Shown: one piece after another, positions 48,647-52,758 of the stretch
Layout: every line of letters starts with the position of its first letter
Position numbering within the stretch: position 1 is the stretch's first letter
Assembly: GCA_030692565.1 (NCBI GenBank)
Contig: JAUYAO010000058.1
Span: 62,001 to 126,000 of the forward strand
Origin: Nitrospira sp.
GTDB taxonomy: Bacteria; Nitrospirota; Nitrospiria; Nitrospirales; Nitrospiraceae
Length of the DNA stretch: 64,000 nucleotides
Direction of reading: 5' to 3'
Notes under the pieces: generated by a model
Database searches by the model: none
The model's input: only the letters and a program-made list of their open reading frames with translations
Told to the model about the DNA's origin: nothing
Made by a program: the position numbers and the translations under genes

Positions 48647-48847
48647 TCAGGAAAAGGCCTCAAGCAGTTCGACATCTTTCTTGAGGAGCTGATTAACCAA
48701 GTCTCCGACTTCCGTGTGCTTTTTCTTGGCAATCCGTTCGAGTTGCCGGTGGACTTTGGCATCAAGATAAACGGGGAAGTGCAGGGCCGCGGCCTTCCGA
48801 AAAAACTTTCCTCGCACGCCCTTTGAAAAATCGTACTCTCGTTTCAT
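48647..48847 (-). CDS. brnA: BrnA-type antitoxin
   Basis: 66 aa. Starts MKREYDFSKGVRGKFFRKAA, the usual opening of BrnA/CopG-like antitoxins, then LHFPVYLDAKVHRQLERIAKKKHTEVGDLVNQLLKKD, a ribbon-helix-helix pattern for DNA binding and toxin neutralisation. The ATG directly follows the toxin stop (TAAATG), and CAGGAGG inside the toxin end serves as ribosome-binding site. Confidence 0.85.
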   Translation of the reverse strand: MKREYDFSKGVRGKFFRKAAALHFPVYLDAKVHRQLERIAKKKHTEVGDLVNQLLKKDVELLEAFS

Positions 48848-49150
48848 TTACGTCCTCCTGTACTGTTTAGTCTCGTTTCTTGTCGCCTTACGGGCTGAGA
48901 TGATACGAACTCTGGCACCATCAGCGGCTTCATCGAAGGTGTGACACACAACCAATACCGTGTCGGCTGTGTCTAGTCCCAATGTGGCCCACCGATCTTC
49001 ATGGCCACTATGTTTCTCGTCAAATTCAGAAAGCGCTTCCGAGTCGAGAAATACTGTGGCCGCTCGCTCGAAAGCAATTCCGTGCTTCCGAATGTTTTGC
49101 CGAGCTTTGGCGGGATCCCACTCAAATTTATACCGAAACAGTTTAGCCAC
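48848..49150 (-). CDS. brnT: BrnT-type toxin
   Basis: 100 aa. BrnT ribonuclease-toxin family: YKFEWDPAKARQNIRKHGIAFERAATVFLD, then DEKHSGHEDRWATLGLD and VVCHTFDEAADGARVRIISARKATRNETKQY. The family's Lys/His/Arg/Glu catalytic residues lie in these blocks. GTG start at 49150 without a visible Shine-Dalgarno. Toxin precedes antitoxin, the standard BrnTA order; the pair normally represses its own promoter. Confidence 0.88.
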   Translation of the reverse strand: MAKLFRYKFEWDPAKARQNIRKHGIAFERAATVFLDSEALSEFDEKHSGHEDRWATLGLDTADTVLVVCHTFDEAADGARVRIISARKATRNETKQYRRT

Positions 49151-50077: not shown

Positions 50078-51010
50078 ATGAAAAAAGTCTTCGTCTCTCA
50101 GAACTTAGTCGAAATAGAAATGCTTAAAGAGCGCCTTGAACGGGCAGGCATCCCCTGCACGATCAAGAACCAGCGTTCATCCAGTCTCGCCGGAGAGGTC
50201 CCATTTACAGAAGTCTTCCCCGAGTTGTGGGTAGTACGAGACATAGACAACGATCAGGCTCTTGAGCTGATTGAGGAACCATCGGCTTTCGATATGCCCA
50301 GCCAGAACGGGTGGGCCTGTGCTGCATGTGGAGAGCATCACGATGGCCAGTTTGGGACTTGCTGGAAGTGCGGCAGAGAAAGAGGCCCAGATTCCAAAGC
50401 CGCGCACCCCCCTTCTCCAGATCCAGACTCACCGAATCCATTGCCGCTAGTTCCAGATGTTGTGAGAGGCTTTCTTCTAGGTGCCCTCTTCACTGTAGCT
50501 GGGTTTGCCCTCTGGAATTACCTGTCGCTGACAGGTACCCCTTATGATCGCAATGGAGATGGCAAAGACGATGTTATTTATGAATACCTGGGGCGAGTTC
50601 TGCAGAGCATAACGTATGACAACAATTTCGATGGATTCTTCGAAACTAGGTCCATCTTCAACCGTAATGGAGATGTGGTCAGCACGGAGATCGACCGTAA
50701 TCGGGACGGAAAACCTGATGTAATCGGACACAATACCTTGGGCAAGCTAGATTTCGTCGAGATCATCGATCTAGAAACCGGGAAAGTCAGAAAACGGATG
50801 TATTACAATCTCGACATGAAGACTCGAGAGGAATTCGATCAGGATGGTGATGGAGCACTTGAGACAGTAACGCAGTTTGACGAGTATGAGAATTCTCTTC
50901 TTAAGGAAGGTCTGATTAATTCCCGCTTTCGATCAGTCAGTGGCAGAAAATCGGGGAATTCCACTGATTCCCGTCCGCAATTTCGAATTAATCAGACCTT
51001 CCTTAAATGA
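50078..51010 (+). CDS. DUF2007-like, zinc-ribbon, membrane protein with four calcium-loop repeats; C-terminus altered by insertion
   Basis: 310 aa. Residues 1-70: DUF2007-type signal-transducing domain (KVFVSQNLVEIEMLKERLERAGIPC). Zinc ribbon Cys81-x2-Cys84...Cys95-x2-Cys98. Transmembrane helix ~126-150. After it, four D-x-N-x-D-G-type loops (DRNGDGKDD, DNNFDGFFE, DRNRDGKPD, DQDGDGALE) look like calcium-binding dockerin/EF motifs outside the membrane. The last 34 residues come from an inserted TIR element; without it the protein would end ENSLLK. Confidence 0.85.
   Translation: MKKVFVSQNLVEIEMLKERLERAGIPCTIKNQRSSSLAGEVPFTEVFPELWVVRDIDNDQALELIEEPSAFDMPSQNGWACAACGEHHDGQFGTCWKCGRERGPDSKAAHPPSPDPDSPNPLPLVPDVVRGFLLGALFTVAGFALWNYLSLTGTPYDRNGDGKDDVIYEYLGRVLQSITYDNNFDGFFETRSIFNRNGDVVSTEIDRNRDGKPDVIGHNTLGKLDFVEIIDLETGKVRKRMYYNLDMKTREEFDQDGDGALETVTQFDEYENSLLKEGLINSRFRSVSGRKSGNSTDSRPQFRINQTFLK
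50901..51006. mobile_element. MITE-like insertion, TTAA-flanked, 22-bp perfect terminal inverted repeats
   Basis: TTAAGGAAGGTCTGATTAAT plus TC (50901-50922) recurs inverted at 50985-51006. If TTAA is the target duplication, the inserted unit is 50905-51006, 102 bp. It is AT-richer than its surroundings, encodes no transposase, and sits in the last codons of the 50078 gene. Removing it restores CTT AAA TGA as the end of that gene. Confidence 0.75.
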
Positions 51011-51312
51011 TAACCCTATGCTCATCAGTAAGAATGCTGACGACTGACTACTCCACCTCCGGCAACTCTCCGTACACCGACTCCACCACGTTCTTCATTT
51101 CCTCGTCGGACACCGGGATGTTGTAGATTTCTTCGCCGGCTTCCTACATCGACTTCAGATCGAGCCTCGTGCCCGTTACGAGGTCTTCACCTTTACCGAG
51201 TTTACCTTTGACGGCATAAGGCCTTCGAGGGAGAGCGCAAGGCAAGACATGTCTGCCGCGGCTAGGATGGTATGCGCGCCGAGATGCGCCTGAAGGTGTT
51301 CGCCAAGCAGGC
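51011..51312. other. Intergenic stretch with decayed coding remnants
   Basis: No intact gene. Minus-strand remnants lie at 51048-51230 (annotated separately). On the plus strand a short segment near 51263-51314 reads RAEMRLKVFAKQA then stop; too short to interpret. Confidence 0.6.
51048..51230 (-). pseudogene. Gene fragment with in-frame stop, unidentified
   Basis: One minus-strand frame reads AVKGKLGKGEDLVTGTRLDLKSM, a TAG at 51144-51146, then 31 sense codons with a coding-like composition (EEIYNIPVSDEEMKNVVESV...ELPEVE) and a stop at 51048. The uninterrupted acidic helix after the TAG suggests the C-terminus of a former protein. I cannot name the family. Confidence 0.45.
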
Positions 51313-51534
51313 CTAAGCGCCAGTCTGATAGATGGCGGGACGATAGCGGGGTTTCGGAATAGGCTTCCGCTCGGCACGGGCGGCAGCCAGCCACGCGCGC
51401 TTCGCGATTTCGGCCTGCTTCAACGCCTCAGCCGGCGTCTTGCCGAACGCCGAACAGGCTTCAAGGTCAGGAATGTCGGCAATGTACCCGCCGTCCGCCT
51501 TGCTGTAAAAAATGTTGATGTGGTAATGCGTCAT
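51313..51534 (-). CDS. hicB: HicB-type antitoxin
   Basis: 73 aa. RNase-H-like HicB half: THYHINIFYSKADGGYIADIPDLEACSAFGKTPAEALKQAE. A basic, Pro-rich tail (KPIPKPRYRPAIY) takes the place of a DNA-binding domain. Its ATG overlaps the toxin stop (ATGA). Neutralises the HicA toxin encoded just upstream. Confidence 0.88.
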   Translation of the reverse strand: MTHYHINIFYSKADGGYIADIPDLEACSAFGKTPAEALKQAEIAKRAWLAAARAERKPIPKPRYRPAIYQTGA

Positions 51535-51791
51535 GATTCCTCGCCCGGCTGCAATTCTAGATCATAGCGTTCCACGATCTCAAGCAACTGGCGAACCTGA
51601 TACGGCTTGGCTTTTCCATCGACTTCTTGAAGATTGACCAGTTCGCGGACATGGGAATGTACGAAAATATGGTGGCTCCCCCTTGTGCGCGAAAGACGAA
51701 ATCCAAACGCCTTTACAAGAGTGACCGCTTCACTAAAGCGAAGATTCTTTGAGCCACCCAGTGCTTTCGCCAGCAGCTTTCTCTTATTCAT
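51531..51791 (-). CDS. hicA: HicA-type mRNA interferase toxin
   Basis: 86 aa from ATG 51791 (GGAGGGG in front). Double-stranded-RNA-binding-like fold with the active-site His in SRTRGSHHIFVH, and VRELVNLQEVDGKAKPYQVRQLLEIVERY. Starts MNKRKLLAKALGGSKNLRFSEAVTLVKAFGF. The longer frame to 51890 is an Arg-rich extension without family similarity. Toxin gene first, then HicB. Confidence 0.88.
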   Translation of the reverse strand: MNKRKLLAKALGGSKNLRFSEAVTLVKAFGFRLSRTRGSHHIFVHSHVRELVNLQEVDGKAKPYQVRQLLEIVERYDLELQPGEES

Positions 51792-51816
51792 CCCCTCCGC
51801 CCACCTTAAGAAGCCA

Positions 51817-52758
51817 CTATGGCAGGATCGGCTGCGCCGGCGTGGTCTCCGGCGCGGCGCCGTCTTTCGCATCGCGGGCGCAGCGGACACCCATCCAGTT
51901 CATCGAGGTCTTGGGGTCCGTGCCGTTGCGTTGTGAGACCCGCACGCTCGGCGTGCTGTCGATCCAGCCTCCGCCACGGAACGCCTTCTGCGAGCCCTTG
52001 TCCGGCCCCTTGGGATTCTTGTCCGGTGCGGTTTTGTAATAGTCCTTATCGTACCAGTCGGCCACCCACTCGGCGACGTTGCCGGCCATCTGAAACACGC
52101 CATACGGGCTCGCGGCGTTGTCGTACTTGAATACGGAGATGATCGGGGGATAGAGCAAGAGCCGCTCGGGGCGATCGCGCACCGGACCTGACAGGCCGGT
52201 CCGGCCGAAGTTCGCCCGCGATAGTCCGGCCATCTCGTTGCCCCATGGATAAATGCGGCTATCCGTCGCGCCCCGCGCCGCCTTTTCCCATTCGGCCTCA
52301 GTCGGCAACCGCTTCCCCGCCCACTTGCAGTACTCATCGGCTTCGTACCACGTTACGTGCATGATGGGATGCGACACCATGGTGTCTTGAAAGTTGCCAC
52401 CGTCAAACTTCCAATCCACTTGAGGTGGACGATTGGTCGCCAAGACGAATTTCAAATATTGGACGGTCGTCACTTCGTATTTATCGATGTCATAGGCATC
52501 AAGGTAGATCGAGCGCTGCGGCATCTCCACCAGATAGGCGTTCTTATCCGTTTTCTTATCACTGCCCATCGTGAACGGCCCCGCCGGAATATGGACCATG
52601 TCGTCGTACGCCGGCAGCTTGATGCGTTCGGCGGCCAACTTGCGCCCCTCTGCCGTCCACTCCTGCTTCACATCGCCCACATCCATCGCCCATGCCGATC
52701 CAGCGGCTCCCACCAAACCTGCTATCCAGACTGCACTGATGAACCCTGTCTTTCTCAC
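51817..52758 (-). CDS. Secreted SUMF1/formylglycine-generating-enzyme-type protein (second copy)
   Basis: 313 aa from the GTG at 52758, which lies 7 nt after AAGGAGG and begins a signal peptide (VRKTGFISAVWIAGLVGAAGSAWA). The ATG at 52776 usually preferred by gene finders lies before that Shine-Dalgarno. SUMF1 domain: MVHIPAGPFTMGSDKKTDK, YDIDKYEVTTVQYLKFV, KRLPTEAEWEKAARG, FQMAGNVAEWVADWY, AFRGGGWIDSTPSVRVSQRNG. No sulfatase nearby. Same family as 30987..31817. Confidence 0.88.
   Translation of the reverse strand: MRKTGFISAVWIAGLVGAAGSAWAMDVGDVKQEWTAEGRKLAAERIKLPAYDDMVHIPAGPFTMGSDKKTDKNAYLVEMPQRSIYLDAYDIDKYEVTTVQYLKFVLATNRPPQVDWKFDGGNFQDTMVSHPIMHVTWYEADEYCKWAGKRLPTEAEWEKAARGATDSRIYPWGNEMAGLSRANFGRTGLSGPVRDRPERLLLYPPIISVFKYDNAASPYGVFQMAGNVAEWVADWYDKDYYKTAPDKNPKGPDKGSQKAFRGGGWIDSTPSVRVSQRNGTDPKTSMNWMGVRCARDAKDGAAPETTPAQPILP

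Follow-up and report, generated by a model that had tools for sequence, protein, structure and literature searches.

The window analysed here, a 64,000-nucleotide stretch of a Nitrospira sp. contig, carries on its plus strand an open reading frame of 310 codons (50078-51010) whose 3' end runs through a long palindrome, raising the question of what this palindrome is and what it has done to the encoded protein. The two arms (50901-50922 and 50985-51006) form a perfect inverted repeat of 22 nt separated by 62 nt, the one repeat of this length in the window; in five mononucleotide shuffles of the window, perfect inverted repeats of at least 16 bp within 300 bp were absent. When boundaries are set by comparison with other copies, the element measures 98 bp (50905-51002, plus strand), begins with GGAAGGTCTG and ends with CAGACCTTCC. 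Its left terminal inverted repeat (TIR), GGAAGGTCTGATTAATTC, occupies 50905-50922 and is perfectly complemented by the 18-bp right TIR on the opposite strand (50985-51002). On either side lies a copy of the target duplication, TTAA (50901-50904 and 51003-51006), which is its own reverse complement and therefore extends the apparent repeat from 18 to 22 bp. Element and duplication (98 + 4 bp) make up 102 bp, or 34 codons, and the right TTAA returns the frame to the original CTT AAA TGA. The original prediction, a TTAA-flanked TIR element next to the stop codon that adds 102 bp and 34 residues without loss of frame or stop, is thus borne out at this site, including the coordinates of the 22-nt repeat.

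The element is short, without capacity to code for a transposase, and belongs to a family that occurs across the Nitrospiraceae. A covariance model built from 25 copies detected it in 52 of the 175 genomes of this family that were searched. An exact-TIR scan of named genomes returned 15 stretches, 13 of them labelled Nitrospira, Nitrospiraceae or Nitrospirota; the other two are contigs of one assembly labelled uncultured Nitrosospira, but in lengths and positions they match those of a genome (G056) that the search placed in the window's own genus. Among 89 copies delimited in related Nitrospiraceae genomes, 76 are 98 bp long, seven are 97, four are 99, and one each is 96 and 100, a count that is somewhat biased because the search model itself has 98 positions. 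Across loci L061-L150 the 62-bp centre has diverged, matching the window copy at a median of 34.5 of 62 positions, while the length holds at 98 bp; this constancy possibly reflects a spacing constraint between the paired ends. A perfect 4-bp duplication flanks 64 of the 89 copies (CTAG in 25, CTAA in 18, TTAG in 14, TTAA in four, others in three), and 61 of these 64 fit YTAR, the experimentally determined IS5 target motif (PMC10359306), as does the TTAA of the window copy. The earlier proposal of TTAA as the target accordingly stands for this site and fails for the family, which uses YTAR; a TTAA-specific, piggyBac-like element is ruled out by the four TTAA duplications among 64.

YTAR contains TAA and TAG, and stop codons are therefore potential targets. 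At 12 of 77 element sites the target is the stop of an open reading frame of at least 100 codons, compared with 9.3% of the remaining YTAR sites of these loci, with no clear excess at stop codons. In these 12 loci (L070, L082, L083, L104, L109, L118, L121, L129, L138, L146, L147 and L149) the duplicated YTAR is itself the TAA or TAG stop of the adjacent frame, so that its near copy preserves the stop.

A full-length partner insertion sequence (IS) of 1178 bp lies on the same contig (G000:C58), flanked by a CTAG duplication. Its ends match the TIR at 18 of 18 and 17 of 18 positions, the left end being identical to the left TIR of the window element, and it encodes an intact 318-aa transposase, found as a single copy in the genome, that matches NCBIfam NF033581 (transpos_IS5_4, E = 8e-110) and Pfam DDE_Tnp_1 (E = 1e-33). 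Many further genomes of the genus carry full-length partners of about 1.18 kb that share these ends and mostly lie within CTAG duplications. The genome also contains two more 98-bp copies, flanked by TTAG, which are identical to each other and share 77% identity with the window copy, giving three in all; the nearest copies elsewhere agree with the window copy at just 76-78 of 98 positions. Both the further copies and the transposase gene with matching ends that the original prediction anticipated are therefore present. One same-genome copy (L026, 474-571; G000:C58:479173-479270) ends a gene for a LuxR-type response regulator (Response_reg, GerE), whose reading frame runs into the element and terminates after RKV; its empty site would extend the frame by 53 nt. 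On the evidence of its ends, target duplication and partner transposase, all of them shared with IS5 and IS5-family MITEs (a 4-bp YTAR duplication, GGAAGGT... ends, a same-genome DDE transposase matching an IS5-family model), we identify the window element as a MITE belonging to an IS5-family insertion sequence. The 98-bp family and its 1178-bp partner are found in Nitrospiraceae, and a search of the available literature returned nothing relevant on MITEs of Nitrospira or on an IS5 MITE resembling this one.

The interrupted gene encodes a protein with an N-terminal DUF2007 domain (PF09413, E = 3e-13). By eye, a zinc-ribbon-like CxxC..CxxC motif and one hydrophobic or membrane segment can be recognized, and the C-terminal half contains DxDxD repeats; a structure prediction based on three sequences has too low a confidence (mean pLDDT 44.5) to inform on the tail. 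With the element in place the frame ends at the TGA originally named as its stop. When the flanks are joined at a single TTAA, the computed empty-site allele reads ...CTTCTTAAATGA and encodes 276 aa ending in FDEYENSLLK. The insertion has thus kept frame and stop and lengthened the predicted protein by 34 residues (50906-51007, plus strand; EGLINSRFRSVSGRKSGNSTDSRPQFRINQTFLK), running from EGLINSRF to NQTFLK, the last two of which (LK) repeat the pre-insertion ending. A tryptic peptide such as SGNSTDSRPQFR lies within this predicted tail.

Tail-less orthologues of the 276-aa form were likewise expected, and two full-length orthologues were found, with 51% (G010) and 44% (G094) identity. Neither has the element; they comprise 275 and 276 aa and end in FDKYESPLP and FDKFENPIN, respectively, at the position where the empty-site protein of the window would end, which indicates that the 34-residue tail is new. 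The empty site itself is inferred from orthologues at these identities, with one genome per species compared.

The passage of translation through the element depends on the frame of entry. The TIR closes two of the three frames with stops (GGA AGG TCT GAT TAA and AAG GTC TGA), and the gene enters by the third. In the alignment, the centre of family members often reads TTTTGATCA, which is a TGA in the frame of the gene, and the window copy has TTTCGATCA instead. We propose that a DDE transposase of the IS5 family, like the one that this genome encodes at another locus, acted in trans to move the 98-bp MITE, and that the MITE inserted in a TTAA (YTAR) site overlapping the last sense codons of the DUF2007 gene, ahead of its TGA. 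The 4-bp target duplication would bring the footprint to 102 bp and, this being 34 codons, the frame would be kept. The gene would then enter by the only same-strand frame that the TIR leaves open and, as this copy lacks the central in-frame TGA, translation would cross to the old stop. We hold this course of events, an insertion in trans that restored the frame and added 34 C-terminal residues, to be very probable. The transposase of this genome is the likely agent of the move, the predicted longer protein is presumably produced, and the tail, sited at the extreme C terminus, would be tolerated without a function of its own. Basic residues are abundant in the tail, which the host protein might have put to use, for example in binding or localisation, in which case the tail would be an exapted transposon segment; we consider this very improbable.

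Another reading extends from this gene to the whole family, namely that the elements are selected for translation within genes and that the 98 bp (102 bp with the duplication) are kept for divisibility by three. Selection for translation applies to the palindromic elements of Rickettsia described by Ogata et al. (cited in PMC10969869), which are about 150 bp long, are read in frame inside host proteins, possess a conserved open reading frame and often lie in genes. The window element resembles them in being small, palindromic and read in frame, and this in-frame reading, together with the constancy of length in the face of diverged centres, could be cited in favour of selection, with the reservation already made about the search model. 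The frames of the family tell otherwise. The 98-bp copies give 152 strand readings, and the one frame that can be passed is open in 21 of them, compared with 33 expected with shuffled centres, and in 62 of the 89 copies neither strand has an open frame. Upstream reading frames of at least 80 codons enter an element in 18 cases, many of which may not be genes; 16 stop inside, mostly after RKV or GKV, and the two that pass through are the window copy and one doubtful frame (L139). With open frames fewer than expected by chance and entering frames mostly stopped, family-wide selection for translation is rejected, and we give it very little credence: unlike the Rickettsia palindromic elements, the Nitrospiraceae MITEs show neither a conserved open frame nor frequent in-frame insertion, and passage in frame is exceptional. 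Because other entering frames nearly always stop within the element, the window case appears as one fortunate outcome, probably harmless owing to its C-terminal position.

It is about equally hard to sustain that the hairpin is a regulatory or transcription-terminating structure at the 3' end of the host gene and a transposon in looks only. The strand does fold strongly (-52 kcal/mol, z = -5.7) and the gene does end at the hairpin, but other copies that share the ends and are flanked by target duplications occur in unrelated contexts, and a full-length relative bearing a transposase exists. Searches for promoter or terminator function at the element gave no sense-strand hits; no terminator followed by a T run turned up on the sense strand, and the antisense strand gave only a weak one. 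A side effect of the hairpin on mRNA stability is possible. That the 34-residue tail is ancestral and was lost in the orthologues is scarcely credible: the full-length orthologues number only two, but both stop at the identical position, the tail corresponds precisely to the element and a single target duplication, and the flanks joined at a single TTAA yield the same ending.

The surroundings of the gene contain other small reading frames whose nature is suggested by inspection. Two on the minus strand at 48647-49150 (66 and 100 aa) resemble a BrnA/BrnT-type toxin-antitoxin pair, and two more at 51313-51890 (73 and 119 aa, minus strand) resemble HicB/HicA. The interval between the MITE and the latter pair (51011-51300) looks like degenerate gene remnants.

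The in-frame MITE insertion described here joins a kind of event whose principle has already been published in other bacteria. In Coxiella burnetii Dugway, an in-frame QMITE2 at the 3' end of enhC provides the last 33 residues of EnhC, with a stop directly downstream (PMC5896051). The two cases are alike in that a MITE situated at a gene's 3' end contributes C-terminal residues in frame; they differ in MITE family and host and, unlike enhC, the Nitrospira gene reuses its original stop, with the duplicated target restoring the frame. The locus provides a clean example of a non-autonomous transposon that lengthens a protein without breaking it, and the definition of a 98-bp IS5-type MITE family and its full-length partner across the Nitrospiraceae helps to annotate the genomes of nitrifiers.
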